From contig NZ_VIRS01000001.1 in NCBI RefSeq assembly GCF_006912135.1, positions 124,001 to 188,000 on the forward strand: a stretch of 64,000 nucleotides of DNA, read 5' to 3'. The DNA is from Cryptosporangium phraense. Its GTDB lineage: Bacteria; Actinomycetota; Actinomycetes; Mycobacteriales; Cryptosporangiaceae. Position numbers and translations under genes: made by a program. The number at the start of each line of letters is the position of its first letter. Positions within the stretch are counted from its first letter, which is position 1. The notes beneath the pieces are model-generated. The model did not search any database. It was given only the letters and a program-made list of their open reading frames with translations, and was not told the origin of the DNA. This document shows, in pieces, positions 9,567 through 52,755 of this stretch.

Positions 9567-9596
9567 AGGATCGGATGCGACCCGCTTAATTCGCCC

Positions 9597-32896: not shown

Positions 32897-32915
32897 GCCG
32901 CCACACCTCCGAGCG

Positions 32916-32940
32916 TTGCGCATTGTGCAATGGGCGTTGC
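32916..32940. promoter_or_regulatory. Palindrome and direct repeat, probable IclR operator
   Basis: TTGCGCATTGTGCAA (32916-32930) is a 15-bp near-perfect palindrome with 6 of 7 pairs matching. GCGTTGC occurs at 32913-32919 and again at 32934-32940, 21 bp apart. The site is midway between the two divergent operons of the cluster, so the IclR protein could control both. Confidence 0.6.
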
Positions 32941-32971
32941 AAAATCGATGCCACCGTTTTAGCATCGACGC

Positions 32972-34662: not shown

Positions 34663-34670
34663 GGAGTTCG

Positions 34671-36723: not shown

Positions 36724-37024
36724 CCCCGGACCAGGCCGCGTTTCGCAGGTCAGCAGCCCACTCGGTGACGATCTTCGCGTATCGCGGCGGGTCGAACTGG
36801 TGCATCGTGTGCGGCGCGTCCGGCACCGACTCGTACGCGACCGGCACGCCGGCCGCCTCCATCAGCGTCCGCGCGTAGCCGGCCTGGTCATCGGAGAGCG
36901 CGCCGATCAGGTCCCCGGTCTCCGGGTCGATCGTCCGCAGGTGGTGGGTCATCGGCACCGGCTTCTTCACCTGCGCCAGCATCCGCTCGTGCGGACAGTG
37001 CAGACCGACCGTCCCTTCGTAGAA
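36668..37024 (-). pseudogene. C-terminal remnant of an alpha/beta hydrolase
   Basis: Reading leftwards from about 37,024, the frame gives FYEGTVGLHCPHERMLAQ, then THHLRTIDPETGDLIGALSD and YESVPDAPHTMHQFDPPRYA. This looks like the last 110 residues of an alpha/beta hydrolase, with the catalytic histidine in APHTMHQFDP. The N-terminal core with the nucleophile is missing. The frame is open but starts abruptly at the point where the IclR remnant on the other strand also starts. Confidence 0.7.
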
Positions 37025-37026
37025 CG

Positions 37027-37535
37027 GTGGGCGCGTTGGAGCGTCTCCCGGACGGCGAGTTCGTCGTCGGGTTGCAGCTGCTGGAGATCGCGTCGTGGGC
37101 CCCGCGGGGGCACGGCCTGCGCGCGGCCGCGCTGCCGTACCTGGAGGACCTGCACCGGGTGACGCGTCAGCACATCCTGCTCGGGGTGCGGGACGGGTCC
37201 GAGGCGGTGCTGGTCGAGCGGCTGTCGGCGCCGGACGAGGTGCGCGACGCGGTGCTGGCCGAGGCGCCGGAGGCGGGCCGGATACGGCGGTTCATGGCCC
37301 AGGTCCGGGCCGAGGGCGTCTGCGCGGTGACCGGCCCGAACCCGGTCGGAGGCGCGGGCCCGGCCACCGTCTCCACGGTCGCGGCGCCGATCGTGACCCG
37401 GAGCGGAGAGGTCACGGGAGCCGTCTCGCTGGTGGCCCCGGACGACGGAGGGGCGCTCCTCGCGGCCCGCGTCGCGGTCCGCACGGCCGCCCTCCCGATC
37501 TCCCGAGCGGCCGCCCGGCCCACCCCCGCGGCCAC
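37027..37535 (+). pseudogene. IclR-family regulator remnant
   Basis: The frame begins ALERLPDGEFVVGLQLLEIASWAP, the wing of an IclR helix-turn-helix; the first 55 or so residues are absent. The effector domain lacks the block between LSAPDEV and RDAVLAEAP (where the RLPLHATGVG-type motif should be) and another before IRRFMAQVRAEGV. The end AAPIVTRSGEVTGAVSLVAP is readable, but the frame then runs without a natural stop into the antisense of the PucR gene. It is therefore non-functional. Confidence 0.75.
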
Positions 37536-37557: not shown

Positions 37558-39168
37558 CTACGGACGCAAGGCCCGCAACTGCACCATCAGGCCGAACCGC
37601 TGATCAGGGTCGCTGAGATCGCACTGCCCCACGTCGGCCACCCGGCGCAGCCGGTACCGGAACGTGTTCTGGTGCACGCCGACCGACTCCGCGGCCAGCA
37701 CGGTGTCCCCGAACGCGTCGAGCCAGGCCCGCAGCGTCTGGATCAGGTTGCCGCGGTGCTCGTCGTCGTACTCGGCCAGCCGGGCCAGCGCCCCGGTCGG
37801 CTTCTCGCCGCGGGCCGCGGCCAGGTCGCGCAGCTCGGAGATCAACGCCTCGCCCTGCAACTCGTCGAACCGGCCGATCCGGCGCCGGGGACGTCCGTCG
37901 CGCAGGAGGCGCAGCACCCGGTCGACGCTCGACCGGCTGCGGGCGACGTCGGACAGGTCGTGCGCCACCGGGCCGACGGCGGTGATCGACGGCAGCCGGT
38001 CGCCCAGCCGGTCGAGGAAGCCCTGCAGGATCCGCTCGGCCCGGCTCCCGGCCTTCTCCGGCGCCCCGGTCGCCGGCACCAGCCCGTAGGTGACCGCGCC
38101 GATCGCCGCGGCCACCGCGGACGGGTGCACCGCGTGCAGGTGCAGCGCGAACGCGTCGCTGAGCCCCTGCCGGTCGTGCATCACGCGCGCGCTGTCGGAC
38201 GTGTCCCGCTCGTCCAGCGCCACGCCCAGCACGAGCAGCGGCTGACTCGACAGCCCGAGCCGCTCGAGCGCCTCACCCGCCCCGACCCCGCCCTCCAGCG
38301 CCGCGTTGAGCAGGTCGGCCCGCATCCGCCGCTGGACGTCGGCCCCGGCCCGGACCCGCAGCAGGTGCAGGGCGACGAGGTTGGCCGCCTCGCGCAGGGC
38401 GTCGTTCCGCTCGTCGCTCAGCGGCCCGGGCACCGCGGCCCAGATCGAGCCGAGCACCTCGTCGCCGGCCCGCACCCGGATCGCGACGCGGGGCACGACG
38501 AAGCCGTTGATCCGGTCCGGGATCGGCTCGATGTACACGGGCTGGTCGCCGCGGAGCAGCTCCCGGAAGACCCCCCGCTCGTGCAGCACCCGCGCGTACC
38601 GCTCCGGCACCTGACGGCCGAGGATCGTGTCGACCCGCGACGAGTCGGCCTCGTCCTGGCGCCCGGAGAAGGCCAGCACGCGGGAGCTGCGGTCCTCGAT
38701 CGTCACCGGCCCGTCGAGCAGGGCGGCGATCGCGTTGGCCACCGCGAACAGGTCACCGGCGGGCAGCCCGCCGAGCACGGCCTCGTCGGCCGGGCCGGGG
38801 TCGGATCCGGGCGCGAGCAGCGAGCGCAGCATCTCGTTGAGGTGGCCCCAGGTGACGCCCCGGCGCAGGCCGAGCACGACGACCCCGGCCTCGTCGGCCG
38901 CGGCCCGCACCTCGTCGGTCAGCGGCACCGGGGCCCGGACGACGAGCGCGGCCACGCGCTGCTCCCCCAGTCGGCGGACGAGCTCCGGCGACACCGACAG
39001 GCCGATGCCGAGCACCAGCGCCGAGGCCGGCAGCACCGGCTGGTCGGACGGGTCGTGGAAGACGACCGCGCCGAGCTCGTCCGGGCGGCCGACGTCGCCG
39101 TACACGTGCTCGAGCAGCGTGGCGCCGAGGTCGTCGACCACGCGACCGAGACTCACGCGAGGCCGCAT
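37558..39168 (-). CDS. PucR/CdaR-family transcriptional regulator
   Basis: A 536-residue regulator. Residues 1-150 fit the PucR N-terminal domain (LGATLLEHVYGDVGRPDELGAVVFHDP). The middle is a GGDEF-like degenerate domain, and the C-terminus has the HTH_30 motif AAESVGVHQNTFRYRLRRVADV. PucR proteins activate catabolic operons in response to nitrogen compounds. ATG 39168 is 17 nt after the racemase stop, so it is the last gene of the D-peptide operon and probably its regulator. A long antisense reading frame across it is a shadow. Confidence 0.88.
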   Translation of the reverse strand: MRPRVSLGRVVDDLGATLLEHVYGDVGRPDELGAVVFHDPSDQPVLPASALVLGIGLSVSPELVRRLGEQRVAALVVRAPVPLTDEVRAAADEAGVVVLGLRRGVTWGHLNEMLRSLLAPGSDPGPADEAVLGGLPAGDLFAVANAIAALLDGPVTIEDRSSRVLAFSGRQDEADSSRVDTILGRQVPERYARVLHERGVFRELLRGDQPVYIEPIPDRINGFVVPRVAIRVRAGDEVLGSIWAAVPGPLSDERNDALREAANLVALHLLRVRAGADVQRRMRADLLNAALEGGVGAGEALERLGLSSQPLLVLGVALDERDTSDSARVMHDRQGLSDAFALHLHAVHPSAVAAAIGAVTYGLVPATGAPEKAGSRAERILQGFLDRLGDRLPSITAVGPVAHDLSDVARSRSSVDRVLRLLRDGRPRRRIGRFDELQGEALISELRDLAAARGEKPTGALARLAEYDDEHRGNLIQTLRAWLDAFGDTVLAAESVGVHQNTFRYRLRRVADVGQCDLSDPDQRFGLMVQLRALRP

Positions 39169-39185
39169 CGGCTCACCGTAGTTGT

Positions 39186-40289
39186 TTACGCTGGTAGCCA
39201 CTCGGTCGTTACCGTTACTTCGTCGAGCCGGTCGGGGATCGGCACCACCCCGAGACCGGGGCCGGTCGGCACGTCGAGGTGCCCGTCCCGGAGGACGAAC
39301 GGTTCGGTGATGTCGGCGGCGTAGTACCGGCCGGAGCCCGAGGTGTCGCCGGGCAGCGTGAAGCCGGGCAGCGCGGCGAGCGCCACGTTGGCGGCCCGGC
39401 CGAGGCCGGTCTCCAGCATCCCGCCGCACCAGACCGGCACGCCGTGGGCCACGCACACGTCGTGGATGCGCCGGGCCTCGAGGTAGCCGCCGACGCGCCC
39501 CGGCTTGATGTTCACGATCCGGCACGCGTCCAGGGTGATCGCGGCGGCCGCGGCCCGCGCCGAGGTGATCGACTCGTCCAGGCAGACTGGGGTCCGGATC
39601 TGCCGGGCCAGCTGGGCGTGTCCGAGCAGGTCGTCCTCGTCGAGCGGCTGTTCGATCAGGAGCAGATCGAACGGGTCGAGCCGGGCCAGCTGCCGTGCGT
39701 CGCCCAGCGTGTAGGCGGTGTTGGCGTCGACCTGCAGCAGCACGTCGTCGCCGAAGCGCTCGCGGACCGCCCGCACCGGCTCGACGTCCCAGCCGGGTTC
39801 GATCTTGAGCTTGATCCGCACGTAGCCCTCGTCGAGATAGCCGCCGACCGCGTCGAGCAGCTGCGGGATGCTGTCCATGATCCCGACCGAGACCCCGCAC
39901 GGCACGCGGTCCCGCACGGCTCCGAGTTCTCCCGCGAACGACCGCCCGAGAACGCGCAGTGACGCGTCGAGGACCGCCATCTCCAGCGCGGCCTTGGCCA
40001 TCGGGTGGCCTTTGAACGGCGCGAGCAGCCCGGCGACGCCGGTCGCCGGTACCGGCGACGCCAGGAAGGCCGGCACGAGATACCGCCGCAGGACGTCCGC
40101 GGCCCCGTCGAGGTACTCGGACGAGTAGAGCGGGCTCTCCATCGCCACGCACTCGCCCCACCCCTCGGCGTCGTCGGCCATCGCGCCGACCAGCAGGACG
40201 TCCCGGGTGGTCTGGGTGCCGAACGACGTCCGGAACGGGGCCACCAGGGGCATCGAGATGCGTCGCAGTTGGACGCCGGTGAACTTCAC
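39186..40289 (-). CDS. N-succinyl/N-acylamino-acid racemase (enolase superfamily, MenC-like)
   Basis: A 367-residue enolase-superfamily enzyme of the OSBS/NSAR type. The capping domain has FRTSFGTQTTRDVLLVGAM and YSSEY. Catalytic lysines are K160 and K162 (RIKLKIEPG) and K262 (VNIKPGRVGG). Metal ligands are D188, E213 (LLIEQPLDEDD) and D238 (CLDESI). These line up within one residue of the well-studied Amycolatopsis N-acylamino-acid racemase. Lack of menaquinone genes nearby and the GNAT and M20 neighbours argue for racemase over o-succinylbenzoate synthase. GTG 40289 overlaps the GNAT stop by 4 nt. Confidence 0.85.
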   Translation of the reverse strand: MKFTGVQLRRISMPLVAPFRTSFGTQTTRDVLLVGAMADDAEGWGECVAMESPLYSSEYLDGAADVLRRYLVPAFLASPVPATGVAGLLAPFKGHPMAKAALEMAVLDASLRVLGRSFAGELGAVRDRVPCGVSVGIMDSIPQLLDAVGGYLDEGYVRIKLKIEPGWDVEPVRAVRERFGDDVLLQVDANTAYTLGDARQLARLDPFDLLLIEQPLDEDDLLGHAQLARQIRTPVCLDESITSARAAAAAITLDACRIVNIKPGRVGGYLEARRIHDVCVAHGVPVWCGGMLETGLGRAANVALAALPGFTLPGDTSGSGRYYAADITEPFVLRDGHLDVPTGPGLGVVPIPDRLDEVTVTTEWLPA

Positions 40290-41065
40290 GGTTCCCTCCG
40301 CACTACGTAGTGGCCGCCGCTGTCGAAGCCGTCGATCTGCACGCTGGTCAGGGCGTCCCGGACGGCGAGACGCCAGCGCCGGGCCAGGGCCGGATCGGTG
40401 GCCCGGATCACCCCGATGTCGGGGGGCACGGCGACGAGCCCGACCGCGCCGTCCGCGGGAACGGCGACCGGTCCGCCGTCCGCACCGATCTCGAGGACGA
40501 CGGGCGCGCCGGGTGCGTCCGGAAGACGAGAATCGTCGCGCAGGGCCCAGTGCACGAGCAGCCGATCGGAGTCCTCGTGCCCGTTGAACGCGTCGGTCAT
40601 CGGCCCGTAGAAGTTCGGCAGGTACTCGACCGGCCGGGCCCCCAGCTTGCCCAGGTTGAAATACGCGTTCCGGGCCACCAGCGGGTCGAACGTCCAGGCG
40701 ATGACCGCGACGTCCCGGTCGAGGGCCCAGGCCCGCTGGTGCAGCTTCAGCGCGAAGCCGATCCCGCGGCCGGTGCAGTCGGCCGACACCCCGGCGATGT
40801 GGCTGTGCAGCGCGCTGCCGGCCGGCTCGTGGAAGAACGCCACGCAGGCGCCGACCAGCCGATCGGCGTCGTACGCGCCGGTCACGTAGTTGCCGGCCTT
40901 GCTGAACGCGCGCAGCAGCTCGGCGGTGACCGGCGGGCTCTCCCGGCGTCCCCAGATGTCGGCGAGCAGGTTGACCGCCCCGGTCAGGTCGGCCATCTCG
41001 GTCAGCTCGCGCACGACGACGCCGGCCTTGTCGGCCGCGGCCTCGGCCTCCTCGTAGGCGGTCAC
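40286..41065 (-). CDS. GNAT acyltransferase (COG3375-like), probable D-amino-acid N-succinyltransferase
   Basis: A 259-residue protein of the large GNAT subgroup often beside NSAR enzymes. VNLLADIWGRRESPPVTAELLRAF opens the fold. The acetyl/acyl-CoA site is HSHIAGVSADCTGRGIGFALKLHQRAWAL, with the R/Q-x-x-G-x-G/A-like turn. A conserved AIAWTFDPL-type strand (here IAWTFDPLVARNAYFNLGKLGA) follows. In Geobacillus such a protein puts succinyl on D-amino acids before racemisation. GTG 41065 overlaps the M20 stop by 4 nt. Confidence 0.78.
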   Translation of the reverse strand: MTAYEEAEAAADKAGVVVRELTEMADLTGAVNLLADIWGRRESPPVTAELLRAFSKAGNYVTGAYDADRLVGACVAFFHEPAGSALHSHIAGVSADCTGRGIGFALKLHQRAWALDRDVAVIAWTFDPLVARNAYFNLGKLGARPVEYLPNFYGPMTDAFNGHEDSDRLLVHWALRDDSRLPDAPGAPVVLEIGADGGPVAVPADGAVGLVAVPPDIGVIRATDPALARRWRLAVRDALTSVQIDGFDSGGHYVVRREP

Positions 41066-42138
41066 GGCTGGCCCACCAGCTGCGAGACCAGCGTCCGCAG
41101 CAGCGCGGTGCGCGGCGGGATCTCGGCGATGACGACGTGCTCGTCGGCCGCGTGCGCACCCCCGCCGACGGCGCCCAGGCCGTCGAGCGTCGGCGTGCCG
41201 ACCCCGGCGGTGAAGTTCCCGTCCGACGCACCGCCGACGGCGGCCCGGCCGGGCACCGGCCGTCCACCGTCGGCGGCGATCCGGCACGCCCTCGCGTACA
41301 GCGACGCCGACGCCGACGCGTCGAGCGGAGGGCGGTTCGGGCCACCGGTCACCTCGAGCACCGCGCCCGGGAGGACCGGCCGGAGCGCCCGCATCGCGCG
41401 ATCGACGCGGTCCTGTTCCGCCGGGGTCCCGGCCCGGACGTCGACCGCGAACGTGGCCTCGGCCGGCACGGTGTTCGTCGTGGTGCCGGCGTGCGCCACG
41501 GTGGGCGTGACCGTGGTGGCGCCGTCCGCGAGCGCGCTCACGGCCAGCACCTGGTGAGCCAGCTCGACGGTCGCGTTCACCCCGCGCTCCGGCTCGAGCC
41601 CGGCGTGGGCCGCCCGCCCGACTATCCGGACCTCGTAGATCGACGTGCCCTTGCGCTCGCACTTGAGCGCCCCGCCGTCGGCCGACGCCTCCAGCACCAG
41701 CGCGGCCGACGCACCGCGCGCCTCCTGCTCGATCAGTTCGCGCGAGGTCAGCGAGCCGATCTCCTCGTCGCCGGTGACCAGCAGCGTCACGCCGTCCAGA
41801 CCGGCGGCCGCGTGGAACGCCATGACCAGCCCGGTCTTCATGTCGAAGCAGCCGGGTCCGCGCAGGATCCCGCCGTCGATCGAGTACGGCAGGTCAGCGA
41901 GGGTGCCGATCGGCCAGACCGTGTCGTGGTGGCCGAGCAGCAGCACCCGGGAGGGGTCGGCGCCGAGCCGCCAGCGCAGGTGGATCCCGTCGATCCGCTC
42001 CGGCGCGACGCCGAGGATGCCGGTGCCCAGCTCGGCCACGACCTCGGCCGAGCGGGCCACCGCGACCAGGTCGTCGGACGGCGACTCGCACTCGACGAGC
42101 GCCCGGACGTCGGCGAGCATGTCCCGCAGCTCGGCCAT
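41062..42138 (-). CDS. M20-family metallo-hydrolase (candidate N-succinyl-L-amino-acid desuccinylase)
   Basis: A 358-residue zinc peptidase/amidohydrolase. Metal and catalytic motifs are LLLGHHDTVWP, GPGCFDMKTGLVMAF, TGDEEIGS (general base glutamate) and a late GGGAHAADEHV histidine. A dimerisation domain (residues 165-275) contains VGRAAHAGLEPERGVNA. It resembles carboxypeptidase G2 and amino-acid deacylases. Between a GNAT and a racemase, the best fit is release of L-amino acid from N-succinyl-L-amino acid. ATG 42138 overlaps the fusion gene's stop by 1 nt (TGATG). Confidence 0.83.
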   Translation of the reverse strand: MAELRDMLADVRALVECESPSDDLVAVARSAEVVAELGTGILGVAPERIDGIHLRWRLGADPSRVLLLGHHDTVWPIGTLADLPYSIDGGILRGPGCFDMKTGLVMAFHAAAGLDGVTLLVTGDEEIGSLTSRELIEQEARGASAALVLEASADGGALKCERKGTSIYEVRIVGRAAHAGLEPERGVNATVELAHQVLAVSALADGATTVTPTVAHAGTTTNTVPAEATFAVDVRAGTPAEQDRVDRAMRALRPVLPGAVLEVTGGPNRPPLDASASASLYARACRIAADGGRPVPGRAAVGGASDGNFTAGVGTPTLDGLGAVGGGAHAADEHVVIAEIPPRTALLRTLVSQLVGQP

Positions 42139-45100
42139 CAGCTCACCTTCGGGGTGGCCCGCACGCCGAAGTGCAGGTACGGCTCGCCGGTGGGCAGCGT
42201 GTAGAACGTGACCGGCATCCAGTTCTCGGCCTCCGGCGGCCTGACCGCGAACACTCCCGGCCCGGCCGGCACCAGCGGGTACTCGGTGACCGGGTCCGGT
42301 TCGAGCTCGGCCAGCGGCCCGGTGATCGTCGTCCGCAGGAGGGTCGGCTCCACCTCCATCCGGACGCCGGCCCGCTCGTAGGTCCCGACGTACGCGGACG
42401 CGTCGCCCTCGGCCGACGTCCCGGGGGCGAACGGCGCCGGCATCGACACCCCGTCCTCGGCGAAGATCTCCCGGAACAGGTCCTGGTACAGATCCCGGGC
42501 CGACCCGCCGTTGGTCAGCAGCACGACGGCCAGTCCGGCCGACGGCAGCACGCGCAGGAACGCCGCCTGCCCCAGCGTCGTCCCGTCGTGGCCGATCAGC
42601 CGGTGCCCGTCCCACCCGAACCGGATCCAGCCCAGCCCCCACGAGTCCCCGAGCACCTGCTTGTCGGGCAGGTCGGCCTGGTGGTCGGCCATCGCGGCCG
42701 CGCTCCCTGCGCTCAGCAGACCACCGTCGAGGTGGGCCCGGACGAACGTCAGCACGTCGGCGACCGTCGAGTTGATCAGGCCGGCCGGCCCGATCGCCCG
42801 GGGCAGCATCCAGGTCGTGACCGGCTCGCCGTCCTGGTGGCCGACCGCGGTGGAGTACAGCAGCGCCTCCTCGGGCAGCGTGTTCGTGGACCGCAGCCCG
42901 AGCGGCTCGAACAGCCGCGACCGCAGCGCCTGGTCCCAGGTCTGACCGGTGATCTTCTCGATCACCCGGCCCAGCAGCGAGTAGCCGGAGTTGCAGTACG
43001 AGAACGTGACGCCGAGCGGATGGTTCTGCCCGACCCCCTCGAGCTGCTCGACGTACTTCTCGACGCAGTCGTCGCCCCGGCCCGTGTCGGTGAACACGTC
43101 GCCGTCGATGCCGCTGGTGTGGGTCAGCAGGTGCCGGACGGTCACCGCCTTGGTGACGTCGGGGTCGGACAGCCGCAGCTCCGGCAGCACCTCGGCCACC
43201 GGGGTGTCCAGCCTGAGCAGGCCCTCGTCGACCAGGAGCATCGCCACGGTGGCGGTCCAGACCTTGGTGATCGAGCCGATCTGGAACAGCGAGTCGGTGC
43301 GCACCGGTGCACCGGTGCCGCTGTGCAGCACGCCGTGGGCGAGCTCGATCACCTCGCCGCCCCGGAGGATGCCCAGTTGCGCGCCCGGCACGCGGTGCCG
43401 TGCGGCCAGGACGGCCAGCCGCCGCTGCCAATGCGCCGCGGTCGTGTGTTTGGTGAGCCAGTCCACCACCCGGCGGTGGTAGTCCAGACGCTGCGAGGGA
43501 GCCCCGACCAGCAGGAACGCGTGTGACGCGCCCGGATACACGACCAGCCGGGCCGGCACGCCCTGCTGGCGCAGCGCGGTGTGCCACTGCTGGGCCTGTC
43601 CGACCGGGCAGGTCCGGTCCTCGGCCCCGTGCAGCAGCAGCGTCGGCGTGCGGACGTCGGCCACGCGGGTCAGCGGCGACATCGCGGCATAACTGTCCGG
43701 CTCCGCCCACGGCAGGCCGCCGAGCTCGAACGCGCTGAGGAAGTGCGCGTCGTCGCTGGAGCCGCTGATGCTGACCAGGTCACTCACCGTGCCCCCGGCC
43801 ACCGCGACCGCGAACCGGTCGTCGTGGCCGGTCAGCCAGCAGGTCGTGAACCCGCCGTAGCTGTAGCCGGCGATCGCCAGCCGATCGGGGTCGGCCAGCC
43901 CCTCGGCCACCAGCTCGTCGAGCGGCTCGAGGAAGTCGTCGGCGTCGGCCACGCCCCAGGCGCCGTGCACGCCGTCGTAGAACTCCTCGCCGTAGCCGTC
44001 GCTGCCCCGGGGGTTGACCACGAGCACGACCCAGCCGTGCTCGACCAGCTCCTGGTGGTACAGGTGGACGTCGTCCGCGGCCGCGTTCCAGGCGTTGTGC
44101 GGCCCGCCGTGCACGTCGAGCAGGAGCGGCCGCGGCCCGCGGCGGGCCCGGTCCCGCATGATCCAGCCCTGCACCCGGGTCCCGTCGGAGATCTCGAACC
44201 AGCGCTCCTCCCGCGGGTGCAGCTCCACCGTCCGGTCGGTGACCGCGGAAGAGACCCCGGTCGCCAGGTCCACGACCACGATCTCGCCGAACGACTCCGG
44301 CGTCGCCAGCGCCACCGCGGCCCGCCCGCCCGCGACCGACAGCCCCGACACGACCCGCCCGGCCCCGTCGACCACCGGCCGGGCGTCCCCGCCGTCGATC
44401 GCGACCGACCACAGGTGGGTGCACCCGTGCTCGCGCAGGCAGAAGTACACGCGGCCGTCGGCCGCGACCGGCCGTCCGCCGGGATACCCGATCCCGCCGG
44501 GCAGCACGTTGCGGTCCAGCTCCCCGGAGAGGTCGGTGACCGCCTTCGAGGCCAGGTCGACGTGGTGGAGGTGGGCGTGTCCGCGCGGGTCACCGGCCCA
44601 GCCGACGACCAGCAGCCCGTCGTCCCCGGCCCAGTCCACGGTGGACGCCACCCCGTCGGCGAAAGCGACCACCCGTGCTTCGGACGAGTCGACGTCCAGC
44701 AGGAACACCGGCGTGCGGTAGGTCAGGTCGGCGTCGGGACCGGAGCGGCGGGTGAGCGCGAGCGTCGTGGAGTCCGGCGACCAGGCCAGCGACCCGACGC
44801 CGTCCGGGCCGTCGGTGAGCCGGCGCACGGTCCGGCCGTCCAGATCGACGACGTGGACGTGCGGCCGGACCGCGCCGTGCAGCCCCGAGCCGTCGGTCTG
44901 GTAGTCGAGGCCGTCGGACACGAGCGGGCCGCCGGCGTCACCGGCCGGGGCGAGGAACGCCAGCCGGTTCCCGTCCGGGCTCCAGACCGGCGCCCCGGCC
45001 GGCCCGTCGGTCACCGGCTCGGGCTCGCCCCCGTCGACGTCCAGCACCGCGATCTGCCCGTCGCTCAGGAACGCGAGCCGACGGCCGTCGGGAGACCAGG

Positions 45101-45278
45101 ACGGCGCGGAGCCCTCGGCGAGGCGACGCGGAGCGCCGCCGACGACGGGGGCCAGCCACAGCTCGTCGACGTTCCGGTCGCCGTCGACGTCGAACGTGCG
45201 CAGCACGTAGACGACCTGGGTGCCGTCCGGGGACAGCGCGGGCGCGGACGGGATCGCCAGATCGGCGAGGTGGATCAT
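42138..45278 (-). CDS. S9 prolyl-oligopeptidase fused to a beta-lactamase-fold serine hydrolase
   Basis: A 1046-residue two-enzyme fusion. Residues 1-350 are WD40/TolB-like propeller blades (repeated WSPDGxRLAFL). Residues 370-620 are an S9 acylaminoacyl-peptidase domain with nucleophile S473 in AGYSYGGF, and aspartate and histidine in LLLHGAEDRTCP and YPGASHAF. Residues 635-1046 are a class C beta-lactamase/D-aminopeptidase fold with S669 and K672 (SITK), YCNSGYS and IGHDGTTLG. The second half is a clear paralogue of the gene at 50401-51798. Together they could open peptides from inside and remove D-residues. No signal peptide is seen, so it acts in the cytoplasm after import. Confidence 0.88.
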   Translation of the reverse strand: MIHLADLAIPSAPALSPDGTQVVYVLRTFDVDGDRNVDELWLAPVVGGAPRRLAEGSAPSWSPDGRRLAFLSDGQIAVLDVDGGEPEPVTDGPAGAPVWSPDGNRLAFLAPAGDAGGPLVSDGLDYQTDGSGLHGAVRPHVHVVDLDGRTVRRLTDGPDGVGSLAWSPDSTTLALTRRSGPDADLTYRTPVFLLDVDSSEARVVAFADGVASTVDWAGDDGLLVVGWAGDPRGHAHLHHVDLASKAVTDLSGELDRNVLPGGIGYPGGRPVAADGRVYFCLREHGCTHLWSVAIDGGDARPVVDGAGRVVSGLSVAGGRAAVALATPESFGEIVVVDLATGVSSAVTDRTVELHPREERWFEISDGTRVQGWIMRDRARRGPRPLLLDVHGGPHNAWNAAADDVHLYHQELVEHGWVVLVVNPRGSDGYGEEFYDGVHGAWGVADADDFLEPLDELVAEGLADPDRLAIAGYSYGGFTTCWLTGHDDRFAVAVAGGTVSDLVSISGSSDDAHFLSAFELGGLPWAEPDSYAAMSPLTRVADVRTPTLLLHGAEDRTCPVGQAQQWHTALRQQGVPARLVVYPGASHAFLLVGAPSQRLDYHRRVVDWLTKHTTAAHWQRRLAVLAARHRVPGAQLGILRGGEVIELAHGVLHSGTGAPVRTDSLFQIGSITKVWTATVAMLLVDEGLLRLDTPVAEVLPELRLSDPDVTKAVTVRHLLTHTSGIDGDVFTDTGRGDDCVEKYVEQLEGVGQNHPLGVTFSYCNSGYSLLGRVIEKITGQTWDQALRSRLFEPLGLRSTNTLPEEALLYSTAVGHQDGEPVTTWMLPRAIGPAGLINSTVADVLTFVRAHLDGGLLSAGSAAAMADHQADLPDKQVLGDSWGLGWIRFGWDGHRLIGHDGTTLGQAAFLRVLPSAGLAVVLLTNGGSARDLYQDLFREIFAEDGVSMPAPFAPGTSAEGDASAYVGTYERAGVRMEVEPTLLRTTITGPLAELEPDPVTEYPLVPAGPGVFAVRPPEAENWMPVTFYTLPTGEPYLHFGVRATPKVS

Positions 45279-46012
45279 CGAGTACTCCTTCGGGGCGCTC
45301 GGCCGGGTACGGCGGCCAGCAACTCGCGGGTGTAGTCGTGTTCGGGCTCGGCGAGGACCTGTGCGGTGGGTCCGTGTTCGACGAGCCGGCCGGAGCGCAT
45401 CACCGCGACGTGCGAGGCGACGTAGCGGACGACGGCCAGGTTGTGGGAGATGAACAGCATCGAGAGTCCCAGCTCGCGCTGGAGCTCGCGGACGAGGTTG
45501 AGCACCGCGCCCTGCACCGAGACGTCGAGGGCGGACGTGATCTCGTCGGCGATGATCACGCGGGGCTTGGCGGCCAGCGCCCGGGCCAGCGCGACCCGCT
45601 GGCGCTGACCGCCGGACAGCCGGGACGGGACGGTCGTGACCGTGCCCGGGTCGAGGTGGACGAGCTCGAGCAGGCGCCGGGCCTCGGCGCGCCGGTCGAC
45701 GCCGCTGGGCATCGCCTCGGCCAGCGTCGCACCGATGCTCATCCGCGGGTCGAGCGAGGAGTACGGGTCCTGGAACACCATCTGGAGTGGACGCGGCCGG
45801 CCGCGGGTCGGCACCGGGGCGCCGCCCAGCGTGATCCGGCCCGCGGTCAGCGGGGCCAGGCCGACGGCCGCCCTGGCCAGCGTGGACTTCCCCGAGCCGG
45901 ACTCCCCGACCAGGCCGATCACCGCGCCCTCGGGCACGGTCAGGCTGACGTCGTCGACCGCGGTCGTGCGCCCGTACCGGACCGTGACGTGCGAGAACTC
46001 GAGCTCGCTCAC
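45275..46012 (-). CDS. Peptide ABC transporter ATPase (DppF/OppF-like)
   Basis: A 245-residue ATP-binding subunit. Walker A is GLVGESGSGKSTLARA, the signature is SRLSGGQRQRVALARALAAKP, Walker B is VIIADEITSALDVSVQ and the switch histidine is ISHNLAVV. The Oligo_HPY tail found in DppF is short. It powers peptide uptake with the permease-ATPase fusion encoded just upstream. GTG 46012 and both ends overlap neighbours by 4 nt. Confidence 0.92.
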   Translation of the reverse strand: MSELEFSHVTVRYGRTTAVDDVSLTVPEGAVIGLVGESGSGKSTLARAAVGLAPLTAGRITLGGAPVPTRGRPRPLQMVFQDPYSSLDPRMSIGATLAEAMPSGVDRRAEARRLLELVHLDPGTVTTVPSRLSGGQRQRVALARALAAKPRVIIADEITSALDVSVQGAVLNLVRELQRELGLSMLFISHNLAVVRYVASHVAVMRSGRLVEHGPTAQVLAEPEHDYTRELLAAVPGRAPRRSTR

Positions 46013-47835
46013 GGCGCCTCCTCCCCCGCGTGCCAGCAGGCCACCAGGTGCTGCGGCGAGTCGGCGAGCAGCGGTGGGTCCTCGGTCCGGCAGTGGTCGT
46101 CGGCCAACGGGCAGCGCGGCGCGTAGGCGCACCCCGGCGGCACGTCGGCCGGGTCGACCGGACGCCCGGGGATCGTCGCCAGCGGACGGTCCAGGTCGGT
46201 GGCCATGTCGGGCACCGCGTCCATCAGGGCCCGGGTGTACGGGTGCAGTCCCTTGGCGCCGGCCGGGAGCTCCTCGACGATCCGGCCCGCGTACATCACC
46301 AGCACCCGGTCGCACACGTCGCCGATCACCGCCACGTCGTGGCTGATCAGCACCAGCGCGGCCCCGTCCCCGGCCCGGATCGAGGCGAGCAGGTCCAGCA
46401 CCTGCTGCTGCACGGTGACGTCGAGCGCGGTGGTCGGCTCGTCGGCCACGATCAGCGCCGGGGCGGCCATCAGCCCCATGCCGATCATCGCCCGCTGGCG
46501 CATGCCGCCGGAGAACTCGTGCGGGTACTGGCGGGCGCGGGCGTCCGGATCCGGGATCTGGACGGCGGCCAGCCGGTCGACCGCGCGGCCGCGCGCCTCG
46601 CGCCGGCTCAGGTTCTGGTGGTGGGTGGCCACCTCGGCGAGCTGGGCCCCGATCCGGCGGGTGGGGTTGAACGCGGTCATCGGGTCCTGGAACACCATGG
46701 CCAGCCGGGTGCCGAGCGTCCGCCGCCGGGCCGCGGTGTCCGGCGCCAGCAGGTCGTGGCCGAGCAACGCGAGCCGGGTGGCGTCGGCCCGGCCGTAGTC
46801 ACCGATCAGCCGGGTGACGGCGAGCGCCGTCATCGACTTGCCCGACCCCGACTCCCCGACGATGCCGACCGCCTCGCCCCGGCGGACCTGGAACGTGACA
46901 CCACGGACCGGCCGGATCTCCCCGTCCGGCCCGGCCAGCGTCACCTCGAGGTCCTGAACGTCCAGAACGACATCGGGGTCCGGCTCGACCGGCGCGGCCT
47001 TCCGGGCGACGCGGGCCCGCAGGCCGACGACGGCGGGCACGCCCAGCGTCTTGGCCAGGGACTCGCCGAAGAAGTTGAACGCCAGCCCGGTCAGGACGAC
47101 GGCCGCGCCGGGGGCCAGCGCACCGGCCGCGTTGACGTAGAGCGTGCTCAGCCCGTCGTAGAGCAGCCGGCCCCAGTCGTAGGAGGGTGGCTGGACGCCG
47201 AGCCCGAGGAACGACAGCCCGGCGAACGAGAGAAGCGCGGAACCGGCCCCGATCGCCGCGTTGACGATCAGCGGCTCACCGATGTTCGGCAGCACGTGCC
47301 GGACCAGGATCCGGCCCCGGCCGACGCCCACCGTCCGCGCGGCCGCGACGTAGTCCCGGTTCGACACCTCGGCCACCAGCGTGTGGGTGAGGCGCGCGAA
47401 CGCCGGGGCGCCGGCCAGCCCGATCGCCAGCACCGCGCCGGTGGCCCCGACGCCGAACACGACCGCGAAGAACAGCGCGAGCAGGATGCCGGGGAACGCG
47501 ACCGCGATGTTGACCGCGGCCACCACCAGCCGCCCGGATCGGCGGCCGAGCAGGAACGGCGCCGCCCCCAACACCAGCCCGGTCACGACCGTGATCACGA
47601 CCGCGGCCAGCGCGAGCACGATCGACAGCCGGGTCGCGACCAGCACCCGCAGCAGGATGTCCCGGCCCAGGTTGTCGGTCCCGGCCCAGTGGGCGCCGGA
47701 CGGCGGCGCGAGGATCTGATCGGTGTCGACCGCGTCCGCGCCGTGCCCCCACACGACCGGCCCGATCGCGGCCACGACGAGCACCACGGCCATGAGCACG
47801 ACGCTCACGACGGCCGTCGGGGTGAGCCGGCGCAT
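46009..47835 (-). CDS. DppC-DppD fusion: peptide ABC transporter permease plus ATPase
   Basis: A 608-residue fusion. Residues 1-285 are a DppC-type permease with GTDNLGRDILLRVLVATRLSI at the start and the EAA loop YVAAARTVGVGRGRILVRHVLPN. After a short linker, residues 300-608 are a DppD-type ATPase with GIVGESGSGKSMTALAV, EFSGGMRQRAMIGMGL, LIVADEPTTALDV and the Oligo_HPY cysteines CAYAPRCPLADDHC near the end. Such fusions are known in actinobacteria. It probably pairs with the DppB gene (2-nt gap) and the separate DppF. Confidence 0.92.
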   Translation of the reverse strand: MRRLTPTAVVSVVLMAVVLVVAAIGPVVWGHGADAVDTDQILAPPSGAHWAGTDNLGRDILLRVLVATRLSIVLALAAVVITVVTGLVLGAAPFLLGRRSGRLVVAAVNIAVAFPGILLALFFAVVFGVGATGAVLAIGLAGAPAFARLTHTLVAEVSNRDYVAAARTVGVGRGRILVRHVLPNIGEPLIVNAAIGAGSALLSFAGLSFLGLGVQPPSYDWGRLLYDGLSTLYVNAAGALAPGAAVVLTGLAFNFFGESLAKTLGVPAVVGLRARVARKAAPVEPDPDVVLDVQDLEVTLAGPDGEIRPVRGVTFQVRRGEAVGIVGESGSGKSMTALAVTRLIGDYGRADATRLALLGHDLLAPDTAARRRTLGTRLAMVFQDPMTAFNPTRRIGAQLAEVATHHQNLSRREARGRAVDRLAAVQIPDPDARARQYPHEFSGGMRQRAMIGMGLMAAPALIVADEPTTALDVTVQQQVLDLLASIRAGDGAALVLISHDVAVIGDVCDRVLVMYAGRIVEELPAGAKGLHPYTRALMDAVPDMATDLDRPLATIPGRPVDPADVPPGCAYAPRCPLADDHCRTEDPPLLADSPQHLVACWHAGEEAP

Positions 47836-47837
47836 CC

Positions 47838-48818
47838 TCAGGCCTCCCGGATCGTCGAACGGGGGTCGAGCAGCGCCAGGACGACGTCGACCACGAGGTT
47901 GGTGAGCAGCACCCCGACGCCGTAGACGAGGACGATGGCCTGCACCACCGGATAGTCCTTGGTGAGGATCGACTGGACGATCGTGCTGCCGAGCCCGGGC
48001 CAGGCGAACACGTTCTCGACCAGCACGGTGCCGGCCACCATCGCGCTCAGCAGCAACCCGCCGATGGTCAGCGCGCCGGTGACCGCGTTGGGCAGGGCGT
48101 GGCGCAGGTAGACGGTCCGCGACGGCAGCCGCTTGGCCCGGGCGGTCCGGACGAAGTCGGCCTCGAGCACCGCCGACATCTCGACCCGGACGATCCGCGC
48201 CAGGATCGCCGCCGGTCCGATCGCCAGCGAGATCACCGGCAGCACGTAGGAGGCCGCGGTGTCGTTGCCGGCGATCGGCAGCCAGCCGAGCAGAATCCCG
48301 AACACGTACACCAGCGCGACGCCGATCAGGAAGTCCGGGATCGTCGCGACGACCGTGCTGGTGGACGTGAACGCGACCTCGGTGCGGTGCCCGCGGCCCC
48401 GCCGGGTCGCCACGCCCATCGCGACGCCCAGCGGGATCGCGATCACGACCGCGGTCAGGAACGCCAGCACGGCCAGCATGAGCGTGGCCGGCAACCGCTG
48501 GGCGACGACGTCGGCCACCGGCAGCCGGGACTGGAGCGAGGTGCCCAGGTCGCCGGTGAACAGCCCCTGGAGGTAGTGCAGGTACTGGACGGGCAGCGGG
48601 TCGTCGAGGCCCAGCGCGTGCCGCCGGGCCTCGACCAGGTCGGCCGGGGCGGTCGGGCCGAGCGCGCCCCGGACCGGATCGCCCGGGATCAGGTGGATCA
48701 TCGCGAACGACGCGGTCACCAGCACCCAGAGCGAGACCAGCAGCCGCCCCAGACGGCGCGCGCCGAACCCCACCCACGGGTTGGCCGGGGGTGCCAGTGC
48801 GACGGTGGCCGCGGTCAT
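47838..48818 (-). CDS. Peptide ABC transporter permease (DppB-like)
   Basis: A 326-residue membrane protein with about six helices. It opens ARRLGRLLVSLWVLVTASFAMIHLIPGDPVRGALGP, the usual DppB start with the conserved PGDP. The EAA loop is DFVRTARAKRLPSRTVYLRHALPNAV. It ends in a helix before LLDPRSTIREA. With the DppC-D fusion it forms the channel of a di/oligopeptide importer. ATG 48818 overlaps the binding-protein stop by 1 nt. Confidence 0.92.
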   Translation of the reverse strand: MTAATVALAPPANPWVGFGARRLGRLLVSLWVLVTASFAMIHLIPGDPVRGALGPTAPADLVEARRHALGLDDPLPVQYLHYLQGLFTGDLGTSLQSRLPVADVVAQRLPATLMLAVLAFLTAVVIAIPLGVAMGVATRRGRGHRTEVAFTSTSTVVATIPDFLIGVALVYVFGILLGWLPIAGNDTAASYVLPVISLAIGPAAILARIVRVEMSAVLEADFVRTARAKRLPSRTVYLRHALPNAVTGALTIGGLLLSAMVAGTVLVENVFAWPGLGSTIVQSILTKDYPVVQAIVLVYGVGVLLTNLVVDVVLALLDPRSTIREA

Positions 48819-50404
48819 TACTTGGCCAGCATCCGGATGCTGGTGGGGGCGAGCTGGCCGGGTATGTCGAAGCGGGCCGCCTTGCCGAACATGAGCACGT
48901 TCTTGCTGGCGAACGGCACGATCGAGGCCTTGGCGATCAGCCCGGACTCGGCGTCGAGCCAGGCCTTGCAGCCCTCGGTGCCGGGCAGCGCCTTGGCCGC
49001 GGTGACCGCCTTGTCGTAGTCGGCGTCCTGGATCGCGGCGAAGTTCGTGCCCTTGGGCGCGGCCGGTCCGGACAGGAACGGCACGAGCTGGTCGGGGCTG
49101 GAGACGTTGAGCGACACCCAGCTCACGTCCCAGTCGCCGGCCCCGAAGATCGTGCTGGTCAGCGTCGTCTCGCTCTGGGCGTGGGCCACGGCGTCGACGC
49201 CGATCGCCTTCCACTGCCTGACCGCGAGCTCGGCGCCCGCGTCGCCGCCGCTGCCGAGGTTGTTCTGGTATAGCAGCGTCACCTTGAGCGGCTTGCCGCC
49301 CTTGGCACGCACGCCACCGGCGCCCTTGACCCAGCCGGCCTCGTCCAGCAGCTTCGCGGCCGCGGCCGGATCGGTGGCCGGCAGCGCCGACTTCACCGAG
49401 TCGCCGGGGCAGGCGACCGGGGCGTTCGCCGCCAGCGTGGTCGCGGCCGTGCCCTGGCCCGACGTGACCACCTTCCGGAGCTGGGCCAGGTCGAGCGCCT
49501 GGGTCAGCGCCATCCGGACCTTCGGGTCGCTGGTCACGCGACCGGCCGCGTGGTTGTACCACTGCTCCCCCACCAGGGCCGGAATGCCGGCCGAGAACAG
49601 GCCGGCCTTCTTCAGCCGCTGCGCGTCCGGCCCGATGATCTCGGCCGCGCTCAGGCCTCCGGAGATCAGCAGGTTCGCCGCCGTCGTCTCGTTCTGGACG
49701 ACCTTCACGACGACGGTCTTGGGCGTGCCCTTGGTGGCGGTCGTCGCTCCGTTGGGTCCCCAGGTGTAGCCGTCCCGGACCTCGTACGTGTAGTGGTCAC
49801 CCGGGGCCGCCTCGACCAGCTTGTACGGGCCGGTGCCGGACGTCGCCTTCTGCAGGGTCTTCCGGTCGGCCAGGCCGCTCGGGCAGACGATCGGCAGGTT
49901 CCCCAGTCCGTTGAGGACGAACGGGGCCGGCTCGGCCAGCGTGATCGTGACCTTGCCGCTCGCGTCGTCGCCGGCCGCCTTCGCGCCGTTCGGGTAGAAG
50001 ACGCCGAGGAACGGGCTGGCGTTCTTCGGGTTCGCGACGAAGTTGAGGTTGTCGGCCACCGCCGACGCGGTGAGCTTGGCGCCGTCCGCGCAGGTGATGC
50101 CGTCGTTCAGCGTCAGCGTGACGGTCTTGTCCTGCACCTGCCAGGACTTGGCCAGCGCCGACTGGATCTCGCCGGACTTGCCGTCGACGCTGACCAGCGG
50201 GTCGTAGGCGAACTGGGTGACGGTGAACAGCGACGTACCGGCGCCCATCTGCGGGTCGAGGGCACCGGGGTCGGACGACAGGCCGAGCGTGAACGTGGCG
50301 CCGTCGACGACCGGGGCCGACCCGGCGCCGGTGTCGGCGGCGTTCCCGGAGCACCCGGCGAGGACGAGAACGAGGGCGCTGACGGCCGCGGTCGTGAGTT
50401 TCAT
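48818..50404 (-). CDS. Peptide-binding lipoprotein of the Dpp/Opp type
   Basis: A 528-residue solute-binding protein of family 5. The leader MKLTTAAVSALVLVLAGCSG ends in a lipobox cysteine at residue 18. The mature protein has GATFTLGLSSDPGALDPQMGAG, LAKSWQVQDKTVTLTLNDGITCADGAKLTASAV and TGPYKLVEAAPGDHYTYEVRDGY, typical of DppA/OppA. It captures peptides outside the membrane for the importer. ATG 50404 overlaps the upstream hydrolase stop by 4 nt. Confidence 0.92.
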   Translation of the reverse strand: MKLTTAAVSALVLVLAGCSGNAADTGAGSAPVVDGATFTLGLSSDPGALDPQMGAGTSLFTVTQFAYDPLVSVDGKSGEIQSALAKSWQVQDKTVTLTLNDGITCADGAKLTASAVADNLNFVANPKNASPFLGVFYPNGAKAAGDDASGKVTITLAEPAPFVLNGLGNLPIVCPSGLADRKTLQKATSGTGPYKLVEAAPGDHYTYEVRDGYTWGPNGATTATKGTPKTVVVKVVQNETTAANLLISGGLSAAEIIGPDAQRLKKAGLFSAGIPALVGEQWYNHAAGRVTSDPKVRMALTQALDLAQLRKVVTSGQGTAATTLAANAPVACPGDSVKSALPATDPAAAAKLLDEAGWVKGAGGVRAKGGKPLKVTLLYQNNLGSGGDAGAELAVRQWKAIGVDAVAHAQSETTLTSTIFGAGDWDVSWVSLNVSSPDQLVPFLSGPAAPKGTNFAAIQDADYDKAVTAAKALPGTEGCKAWLDAESGLIAKASIVPFASKNVLMFGKAARFDIPGQLAPTSIRMLAK

Positions 50405-51798
50405 CGGGCTTCCGTTCCGGCGCGGCGGATCGCGCGCCCCAGGTGGAGGTAGAGCGCGTGGCCGGTGCCGTCGTCGCCGAGGAACGCGTGGGGCATGTAC
50501 ATGCCCCGGTCGGCCTCGACCGGGATCAGCATGTCGTCGCGGTAGTGGACGAGCTCGGTCCGTTCGGCCCGGCCACCCATCTCCTCGAAGAAGCCCTTGG
50601 GCACCTGCTCGATCCAGATCCGCCGGTCGTCGTCCTGGCTGACCGTGAGGTCGAAGACCTGGGCCGAGTAGGTGCCGAGGAACCTCTCGGCGTCGATCGT
50701 CGGCGGGTCGGCCGGCGGGGTGGGCATCGGGGGCAGGCTGACCGGGGAGAACTCGGTCAGGACCCGGCCGACGACGTCCCGGTACAGCGACATCGCGTCG
50801 CCGCCGTTCGTCAGCAGCGCGACGGCCAGCCCGGCGTCGGGGACGATCCGCAGGAACGCGGCCTGGCCGACCGTGTTGCCGTCGTGGCCGATCAGGGTGC
50901 CGGTCGGGAGGTCGAAGCGCTCGAACCCGAGGCCCCAGGACGTCCCCATCAGGCCGAGGTCGGGCAGGTCGACCTGCTTCTCGTGCATGGCGGCCGCGGT
51001 GCCGGGCTTCAGCACCGCGGTGCCGTCGGCGGCCCGGCCGTCGTCCAGGTGCATTTGCGCGAACGCGATCAGGTCCCGGGGACGCATGGCCAGCATCGCG
51101 CCGGCCGGCGAGTTGGACTTCGCCATCGCCCACATCGGAGCCGGTTCGTACCCGGCGCCCCGCTCCAGCTCGATGTGGCCCATCGCGGCGCGGTACCTGA
51201 TCGCCTCGTAGGCGTCGGTCGCGGTGTGGGTCAGCCCGAGCGGCGTGATGAGGTGATCGCGCAGCGCGGCGTCGAAGGTCTTCTGACGCTGGACCTCGAC
51301 CAGGCGCCCCAGCACGCAGTAGCCGGCGTTGTTGTACGAGAACTGCTCGCCCGGCGGGAAGAGCTGCGGAACGTCGGCCAGGGTCGCGACGAACTTCTCC
51401 AGGCAGTCGTCGCCGAGGCCGGTGTCGGTGAAGATGTCACCCTCGAACCCGGCGGTGTGGTCGAGCAACTGCCGGACCGTGATCCGCGCGGCCGCCGCCT
51501 CGTCGGCGATGCGGAACTCCGGCAGGTACTCCCGCACCGGCCGGTCGAGCTCCACCGTTCCCTCGTCGACCAGCTGCAGAACGAGCGTGCTTGTCCAGAG
51601 CTTGGTGATCGACCCGATCTGGAAGACCGCGTCCGTGGTGGCTTCTACGCCGGTGGCCTTGCTCAGCAGGCCGGCCGCGCCGTCCACCACCTCGCCGCGA
51701 AGCGCGATCGCCCATCCCGCGGCCGGGACGTCGTGCTTTTCGAGCAGGAGGGGGAGTTGCTCCTGGAGCCAGACCCGGATGTCGTCGAGATCGCCCAT
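50401..51798 (-). CDS. Beta-lactamase-fold serine hydrolase (candidate D-aminopeptidase/esterase)
   Basis: A 465-residue class C-like protein. The nucleophile and lysine are S63 and K66 in FQIGSITKLW, the YxN motif is in FSYNNAGY, and GHDGNTVG replaces KTG. There is no signal peptide, so it is cytoplasmic. The segment TVRQLLDHTAGFEGDIFTDTGLGDDCLEKFV matches the C-terminal half of the S9 fusion protein closely. It is the first gene of the long operon. D-aminopeptidase-type cleavage of peptides with D-residues would fit the neighbours. Confidence 0.85.
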   Translation of the reverse strand: MGDLDDIRVWLQEQLPLLLEKHDVPAAGWAIALRGEVVDGAAGLLSKATGVEATTDAVFQIGSITKLWTSTLVLQLVDEGTVELDRPVREYLPEFRIADEAAAARITVRQLLDHTAGFEGDIFTDTGLGDDCLEKFVATLADVPQLFPPGEQFSYNNAGYCVLGRLVEVQRQKTFDAALRDHLITPLGLTHTATDAYEAIRYRAAMGHIELERGAGYEPAPMWAMAKSNSPAGAMLAMRPRDLIAFAQMHLDDGRAADGTAVLKPGTAAAMHEKQVDLPDLGLMGTSWGLGFERFDLPTGTLIGHDGNTVGQAAFLRIVPDAGLAVALLTNGGDAMSLYRDVVGRVLTEFSPVSLPPMPTPPADPPTIDAERFLGTYSAQVFDLTVSQDDDRRIWIEQVPKGFFEEMGGRAERTELVHYRDDMLIPVEADRGMYMPHAFLGDDGTGHALYLHLGRAIRRAGTEAR

Positions 51799-51882: not shown

Positions 51883-52755
51883 TCACGAGTCCTTGCGCAG
51901 CGCGGACGTGATCCGCTCGCCGACCTCGGCGGTGAGCGGCCCCTCGCACTCCACCCCGAGCAGCTCGGCCAGCTGCCGGCCGTAGAGATCGACCACCGAC
52001 TCGGTGAGCTCGGCGAACGCCTCGCCCGCGACCCGGGCCCGGTACCAGGCGGTGGCCGCCGTGGCCAGCCCGACGACCGCCGACGGCCACCAGACGACGC
52101 CGACCAGGAGGTAGCCGACCGCCCACGCCACCAGCCGGAACGCCGCGGTCAGGGCCGTCCGGGCGGTGGTGACCTCGGCCCGGACGTCGGACGGCAGCGC
52201 GAGCCAGAGCCGCGGCCAGGCCGAGCCGAGATCGAGCCGGTAGATCGACCAGACCCGGGCGTCGACCGCGGCGATCCGGTCGCCGAGCCAGAACGCGCGG
52301 GTCGGCGGAGCGACGCTGATCCGGTTGCGCCGGGCGTTGAGCTCCTGGGCCCGCGCGGTCCCCTCGCCGCCGCGGGCCGCGGCCAGCAGGGCCGCGGTGA
52401 ACTTCTCCTCGGCCGCGTCCCAGCGTCGGCGGCGACGGCGGACGGACCAGCGCGGTCGGTCGGCGAGCCAGAGCCGCTCCACGACCACGCCCAGCGCCGA
52501 CGCGGCCAGGCCGAGGCCGGCCGACGCCACCAGCACCCCGGCCAGCACCAGCACCAGCACGCTCGTGGTGCGGAACGCCGGCTCGGAGGCCAGGTGGTTG
52601 AGCCGGTCGATCAGGCGTCCGACGTCGTGCCAGTGCCGGTGGCCGAGCACCAGCCCGGCGGCCGCGGCGGCGGTCAGCGGCAGGCTGGGCAGCACGAGCA
52701 GCGTGAGCCAGCGCTCGGCCAGCTTGCCGCCGAGCGCTTCGAGGAACTTCGTCAC
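51883..52755 (-). CDS. Two- to four-helix membrane protein of the CHAT locus, unknown function
   Basis: A 290-residue protein. Hydrophobic segments lie at about residues 17-36 (LLVLPSLPLTAAAAAGLVLG), 64-90 (TSVLVLVLAGVLVASAGLGLAASAL) and 205-235 (VAWAVGYLLVGVVWWPSAVVGL). A charged RRRRRR stretch lies between the second and third. No family recognised. GTG 52755 overlaps the stop of the small upstream gene by 4 nt, so the two form an operon that is divergent from the CHAT gene. It may anchor or receive a signal from the CHAT protein. Confidence 0.6.
   Translation of the reverse strand: MTKFLEALGGKLAERWLTLLVLPSLPLTAAAAAGLVLGHRHWHDVGRLIDRLNHLASEPAFRTTSVLVLVLAGVLVASAGLGLAASALGVVVERLWLADRPRWSVRRRRRRWDAAEEKFTAALLAAARGGEGTARAQELNARRNRISVAPPTRAFWLGDRIAAVDARVWSIYRLDLGSAWPRLWLALPSDVRAEVTTARTALTAAFRLVAWAVGYLLVGVVWWPSAVVGLATAATAWYRARVAGEAFAELTESVVDLYGRQLAELLGVECEGPLTAEVGERITSALRKDS

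Follow-up and report, generated by a model that had tools for sequence, protein, structure and literature searches.

A conserved ten-gene unit of Cryptosporangium phraense places an N-succinylamino-acid racemase among predicted peptide uptake and peptide hydrolysis genes

A run of ten genes in Cryptosporangium phraense brings an enolase of the N-succinylamino-acid racemase (NSAR) type together with a peptide-type ABC importer and several hydrolases. It lies within a 64,000-nucleotide (nt) stretch of contig NZ_VIRS01000001.1 (assembly GCF_006912135.1, positions 124,001 to 188,000), which we refer to as the window. All ten open frames are on the minus strand, reading from 51798 to 37558 (Table 1), and the open reading frame list, the checked coordinates and a Pfam scan, which backs each named family, bear out the gene run and the families given in a preliminary description of this region. 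The genes were said there to overlap nearly throughout by 1–4 nt, and they do so at seven of the nine junctions. The overlap is 4 nt between the genes for the serine hydrolase (SH) and the solute-binding protein (SBP), the fused DppC-DppD protein and the DppF-like ATPase, this ATPase and the S9/beta-lactamase fusion, the M20 amidohydrolase and the GNAT, and the GNAT and the enolase; it is 1 nt between SBP and permease 1 and between the S9/beta-lactamase fusion and M20. The remaining junctions are gaps, of 2 nt between permease 1 and the DppC-DppD fusion and of 17 nt between the enolase and the PucR-type regulator. A search for sigma-70 promoters or terminators ahead of the first gene found none and is uninformative at 73% GC.

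Table 1. Genes of the ten-gene unit, followed by a neighbouring cluster in the window and by accessory enzymes at related loci
Feature	Position	Strand	Details
Serine hydrolase (SH)	50401..51798	-	465 aa; PF00144; beta-lactamase/S12 fold with C-terminal domain
Solute-binding lipoprotein (SBP), family 5, Dpp/Opp type	48818..50404	-	PF00496, 177 bits
ABC importer permease 1, DppB-like	47838..48818	-	PF00528, PF19300
Fused ABC permease 2 and ATPase 1 (DppC-DppD)	46009..47835	-	608 aa; PF00528 at 83-261, PF00005 at 311-469, oligo_HPY
ABC ATPase 2, DppF-like	45275..46012	-	PF00005, 104 bits
S9/beta-lactamase fusion	42138..45278	-	1046 aa; PF00326 164 bits, PF00144 234 bits
M20 amidohydrolase, carboxypeptidase-G2-like	41062..42138	-	PF01546/PF07687
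GNAT N-acyltransferase	40286..41065	-	PF00583, at cut-off
Enolase, NSAR orthologue	39186..40289	-	1SJA match 628 bits; TIGR01928 above cut-off
PucR-type regulator (HTH_30)	37558..39168	-	PF13556, 65 bits; AdeR-like model below cut-off
Second D-amino-acid catabolism cluster	27773-35069		GntP permease, KDPG-type aldolase, N-acyl-D-amino-acid-deacylase-like amidohydrolase (30081-31742), D-serine-dehydratase-like enzyme, PfkB kinase, IclR regulator, RidA
M19 dipeptidases ahead of M20 in NSAR clusters	L126:6846-7928; also L105, L095, L076, L065, L092, L091, L096		at least 60% identity
PRK09061-family amidohydrolases near M20-GNAT-NSAR	L062:6419-7921; also L068, L075, L058, L067, L080, L108		L108 copy 638 bits, cut-off 340

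A congener carries all ten genes in identical order, with unlike flanking genes on both sides. Because this order is kept amid different flanks, and because large parts of the unit recur across actinobacterial families, the arrangement is more than chance. The synteny with the congener stops at SH and PucR, and we therefore take these two genes as the borders of the operon.

Searched against the PDB, the enolase matches the Amycolatopsis NSAR/o-succinylbenzoate synthase (1SJA and its variants) over its full length (residues 1–365, E value 4e-188), with other NSARs of known structure following at about 315–330 bits. The KxK motif (K160, K162), the opposite lysine (K262) and the Asp-Glu-Asp metal ligands (D188, E213, D238) of the NSAR/o-succinylbenzoate synthase subfamily are all present, as the preliminary description had it, and are invariant in 16 orthologues. 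This comparison makes the enolase a close orthologue of the Amycolatopsis NSAR that has been characterised, and supports the NSAR-like identity first proposed for it.

Public records name relatives of this enzyme menC, which would make it an o-succinylbenzoate synthase (OSBS) serving menaquinone synthesis, and the enolase does pass the cut-off of the equivalog model TIGR01928; the menC annotations follow from the o-succinylbenzoate synthase name that this NCBIfam model bears. The genome content argues against such a role. The futalosine enzyme MqnE is present at 525 bits, well over its cut-off, and the genome has no MenD match above cut-off (MenD is detected in 105 genomes of our class sample of 148), so that an OSBS would have no evident job. 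The gene also keeps company with GNAT and M20 rather than with men genes. We therefore reject OSBS as the biological role, regarding it as extremely improbable, and take the enolase to act most plausibly as a racemase. The same label is found on NSARs in plasmid records, including that of D. radiodurans MP1 (L139, locus 8977-10164), which are called menC, o-succinylbenzoate synthase, despite their GNAT company; the NSARs so labelled include the kinetically studied Deinococcus type.

In Geobacillus kaustophilus, D-amino acids are reportedly converted to L-amino acids by a GNAT succinyltransferase, an NSAR and an M20 desuccinylase. Assigning the GNAT of the present unit required structure as well as sequence comparison, as it scarcely exceeds the PF00583 cut-off (20.8 against 20.7 bits) and a PDB sequence search with it gave no match of note. 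A model built from 60 relatives, with a predicted local distance difference test (pLDDT) score of 95, has a clear GNAT fold at residues 15–177 and superimposes on 5isv with a Z score of 16.6 and a root-mean-square deviation (r.m.s.d.) of 2.0 over 148 aligned positions at 14% identity; the C-terminal part past residue 180 falls outside the fold matches. The GNAT is genetically tied to NSAR. In the class sample it occurs in 36 genomes and NSAR in 38, with both in 35 (Fisher p 2.7e-29), and at 35 of 47 NSAR loci the GNAT lies on the same strand within 2 kb. Among 80 named loci, 71 have a same-strand GNAT beside NSAR and none has one on the opposite strand. A profile made from 60 GNATs also recovers the GNAT close to NSAR on Lysinibacillus, Priestia, Deinococcus and Sulfitobacter plasmids (E values 1e-47 to 1e-57). 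A dedicated GNAT of one family thus stands beside NSAR, as the three-enzyme pathway would have it, and we propose that it is an N-succinyltransferase for D-amino acids.

The third enzyme of the module is less straightforward. The M20 protein, for which we propose the role of N-succinyl-L-amino acid desuccinylase, is closest in the PDB to carboxypeptidase G2 (1cg2, 121 bits). Its metal ligands are intact, with H70, D72, D99, E125, E126 and E150 invariant and H329 nearly so in 38 relatives. A same-strand M20 adjoins NSAR at 49 of the 80 named loci, with none on the opposite strand, and an M20 is also found near the homologous GNAT-NSAR pairs of Lysinibacillus, Priestia and Deinococcus ficus. The M20s of the Bacillota modules are aminoacylase-type amidohydrolases that exceed the TIGR01891 cut-off and score just 25–31 bits against a profile of the M20 described here. 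GNAT and NSAR, two of the three pathway enzymes, thus have homologues across phyla, and the M20 looks like a replacement. The Geobacillus-type module proposed in the preliminary description thus holds for GNAT and NSAR, which have homologues in the modules of other phyla, while the M20 comes from another branch than the Bacillota ones examined.

Two proteins of the unit contain a beta-lactamase fold, and these are related to each other. SH has the motifs SxxK (S63, K66), YxN (Y155, N157) and HxG (H305, G307) in a two-domain chain, as in S12 D-peptidases of the Pab87/CubicO and SurE-like kind, and the second domain of the fusion has the counterparts SITK at 669, SYCNSG at 760 and IGHDG at 895; the three motifs are invariant in both across 40 sequences. 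The SH model (pLDDT 95) aligns over nearly its whole length with IS11 (Z 47.2, r.m.s.d. 3.1, 440 aligned), SurE (Z 40.8, r.m.s.d. 3.6, 429 aligned) and Ulm16 (Z 39.6, r.m.s.d. 2.5, 395 aligned), and over 336 residues with Pab87 (Z 40.7, r.m.s.d. 2.5). Pab87 degrades peptides of D-amino acids at both ends, and the genes in its neighbourhood include one for a D-aminoacylase and those for a dipeptide ABC transporter (PMC2651629). The SH model and its match to Pab87 place these proteins, as previously suggested, in a class that contains D-peptidases, and this class also includes the D-Leu-bound SurE. Its members include an esterase, IS11, besides D-specific enzymes, so that D-peptidase activity is likely rather than certain.

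The beta-propeller/S9 peptidase part of the fusion has GYSYGG at 471, GAEDRT at 551 and ASHAF at 584. In a PDB search its closest relatives are 8wt1 and acyl-peptide hydrolases, and those of the beta-lactamase half are IS11, SurE, Ulm16 and Pab87. In the class sample the fusion is seen only beside NSAR or its GNAT, in 11 of 11 cases on the same contig and within about 8 kb (ten full-length proteins and one split match inside a single 1481-aa frame), and for this reason it looks dedicated to the NSAR system. Direct reading of the sequences shows no evident signal peptide in SH or in the fusion, while the binding protein has a lipobox (...VLVLAGC at its N-terminus); SH is therefore probably cytoplasmic, and peptides are probably cut after import.

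The importer has the make-up of a Dpp/Opp system, namely a family 5 SBP, two permeases and two ATPases with oligo_HPY, this last domain being below cut-off in the second ATPase. These Pfam families support the Dpp-type importer originally described in the run. The system is compressed, permease 2 and ATPase 1 forming one protein, a fusion found in 26 of the 30 Cperm-bearing frames of 80 relatives. ATPase 2 has the dipeptide ATPase PRK11308 as its best NCBIfam match, below the cut-off of that model, and no importer protein reaches the cut-off of the NCBIfam equivalog models for peptide, nickel or opine importers. In the congener, PucR is directly followed by another importer of Dpp type, which has the same permease-ATPase fusion (50% identity). 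The PucR protein itself is likely a local regulator of the unit.

Actinomadura, Nocardioides, Kibdelosporangium, Lentzea, Microbacterium, Arthrobacter, Streptomyces and Jiangella also carry most of the unit, and so do Amycolatopsis pretoriensis and A. kentuckyensis, where the M20, GNAT, NSAR, SH, importer and S9 genes occur together in permuted order. A strict test found importer, M20, GNAT and NSAR in one run at 13 of the 80 loci, a lower bound given the 10-kb flanks and the 300-nt limit on gaps between aligned stretches. Across the 80 loci the peptidases vary, whereas GNAT and NSAR stay constant as the core. M19 dipeptidases, a family known for cleavage of dipeptides that end in a C-terminal D-residue, precede M20 on the same strand at eight loci, and PRK09061-family amidohydrolases, a family first labelled D-glutamate deacylase, are found at seven, often adjoining M20; we treat both as leads.

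Other uptake genes stand beside the module elsewhere: a POT-type peptide transporter followed by M20-GNAT-NSAR in Lysinibacillus, NSAR, a binding protein, GNAT and M20 in that order in D. ficus, and a complete amino-acid-type ABC importer followed by NSAR-GNAT in Sulfitobacter. Uptake genes have thus been recruited repeatedly to the NSAR-GNAT module as a general trend, of which the present operon is the most elaborate form among those examined. To call the coupling of module, transporter and peptidases a new whole, as was done initially, is therefore an overstatement. The combination recurs in many actinobacteria, Amycolatopsis included, and a D-peptidase of the same fold beside a dipeptide ABC transporter had already led to a proposal of environmental D-peptide processing for Pab87 (PMC2651629). 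One further record, L143 (CP031730.1 70987-86081), labelled as a Stenotrophomonas rhizophila plasmid, matches the Lysinibacillus plasmid L141 in genes and order and may be mislabelled or contaminated.

Taken together, we think it probable that the ten genes form a conserved nutrient-acquisition unit for peptides containing D-amino acids, with D-to-L conversion. The lipoprotein and ABC importer would carry peptides into the cell, where the S9 domain would cut L-peptide bonds and the two beta-lactamase-fold hydrolases would cut bonds at D-residues, giving free amino acids. The GNAT would acylate the freed D-amino acids, most likely with succinyl from succinyl-CoA, NSAR would racemise the N-acyl-amino acid, and M20, by deacylating the L form only, would draw the mixture irreversibly to L-amino acids; PucR would regulate the unit locally. 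We infer the succinyl group, the D/L preferences, the peptide substrate, the direction of flux and cotranscription. The preliminary reading was similar and stands as to NSAR, the GNAT-NSAR module, a context that speaks against OSBS, the fold class of the hydrolases and the peptide-type importer, but not as to uniqueness or its emphasis on murein and D-Ala. Published kinetics of the Amycolatopsis, Deinococcus and Geobacillus enzymes report N-succinyl-phenylglycine, N-succinyl-phenylalanine and N-acetyl-methionine as substrates (PMC8142540). Murein D-Ala or D-Glu fits poorly with such hydrophobic or aromatic N-acyl substrates, and hydrophobic or aromatic D-residues are therefore the better guess. 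A bolder version, which we hold to be possible but rather doubtful, is that the S9/beta-lactamase fusion is a dedicated two-headed peptidase, its single chain bearing an active site for L and another for D peptide bonds, that it evolved together with the NSAR module to dismantle mixed-chirality peptides, and that the operon is a complete line from uptake to L-amino acids for nonribosomal peptides.

Several observations weigh against the proposed use of D-residue peptides. The CPG2-like (carboxypeptidase G2-like) M20 belongs to another branch than the aminoacylase-type M20s of the Bacillota modules examined, so desuccinylase activity is not transferable by orthology. IS11, to which the beta-lactamase-fold parts are structurally closest, has been characterised as a carboxylesterase whose lipocalin domain serves as a lid (PMC9972953). 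Peptide transport is assigned by family only, as the importer proteins match nickel and opine models too, all below cut-offs, and the importer is outside the same run at the majority of the 80 loci, so that the module can occur without it. A rival reading is a general scavenger of ordinary peptides, its beta-lactamase-fold proteins being esterases or peptidases of broad range and its M20 a dipeptidase or carboxypeptidase, with D-residues no more than an occasional task for the racemase module; the closeness of M20 to carboxypeptidase G2 and of SH and the fused domain to IS11 would fit this, as would S9 relatives that are ordinary peptidases. The constancy of GNAT and NSAR among variable peptidases, and a fusion found only beside NSAR, argue otherwise, and we consider scavenging of this kind unlikely.

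The chemistry could also serve defence, destroying imported or self-made peptide antibiotics with D-residues. SH does resemble SurE and Ulm16, which are cyclases of peptide natural products, and ClbP, and many carriers are antibiotic-rich actinobacteria; yet the Pfam scan found the unit to be without biosynthetic genes, its flanks are not conserved with it, and an active importer would increase exposure. We regard a protective purpose as distinctly unlikely. Racemases run in both directions, and known D-specific succinylases have been employed with NSAR (PMC7431475), so the module might instead turn L-amino acids into D-amino acids. The importer, the peptidases and the CPG2-like M20 suggest catabolism, however, and the unit holds no biosynthetic gene that uses D-amino acids, which makes this reverse flux very improbable. 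Acquisition of D-residue peptides is the reading we retain.

Just downstream of the operon lies a second cluster for D-amino-acid catabolism (Table 1). It does not adjoin the operon in the congener and was not counted as part of the system. Between the two clusters, at 36668-37500, a 45-residue piece of an IclR C-terminal domain (plus strand, 37 bits) and an orphan minus-strand frame look like gene remnants. On the other side, we weighed two small minus-strand genes without a Pfam match (51883-53120) as further members of the operon but rejected them, the congener having other genes at that place. Reading away from them, just upstream, is a 967-aa protein with CHAT and TPR domains (53144-56047).

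A search of the open-access literature found no description of the operon, though subscription papers were outside this search and such absence is no proof. The unit is widespread and built from known parts; neither the conserved whole nor the S9-S12 fusion seems to have been described in the searchable literature. NSARs have long been studied as biocatalysts and as a case of OSBS promiscuity, with their natural role in actinobacteria left vague and the records still saying menC. Joined to uptake and D-type hydrolases, NSAR gains a concrete and testable physiological role, feeding on D-residue peptides in soil, with a bearing on the recycling of D-amino acids, a question raised in PMC3960212. 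The S9-S12 fusion is in addition an unusual enzyme architecture, and the GNAT family would allow acyl donor and stereo-preference to be read in one assay.

The closest known systems share parts of the unit. Pab87 of Pyrococcus abyssi (PMC2651629) shares with SH the beta-lactamase fold with a C-terminal domain and the type of catalytic motif, and with the operon a dipeptide transporter as neighbour and a proposed use of D-peptides; no NSAR module is reported there, and the full-length fold of SH is nearer to IS11, SurE and Ulm16. In the Lysinibacillus, D. ficus and Sulfitobacter modules, too, uptake genes adjoin a homologous GNAT and NSAR, but the transporters are of other families and no S9/S12 fusion is annotated. 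The Amycolatopsis NSAR/OSBS (1SJA, 4A6G) is a full-length orthologue with the same catalytic residues; in Amycolatopsis the NSAR module precedes the importer, whereas here it follows. As in the G. kaustophilus pathway, NSAR and GNAT families stand side by side with M20 in the same run. Differences lie in the M20, which here resembles carboxypeptidase G2 instead of the aminoacylase-like enzymes of the Bacillota plasmid modules examined, and in the company of the module, which here includes an ABC importer, an S12 hydrolase, an S9/S12 fusion and PucR.

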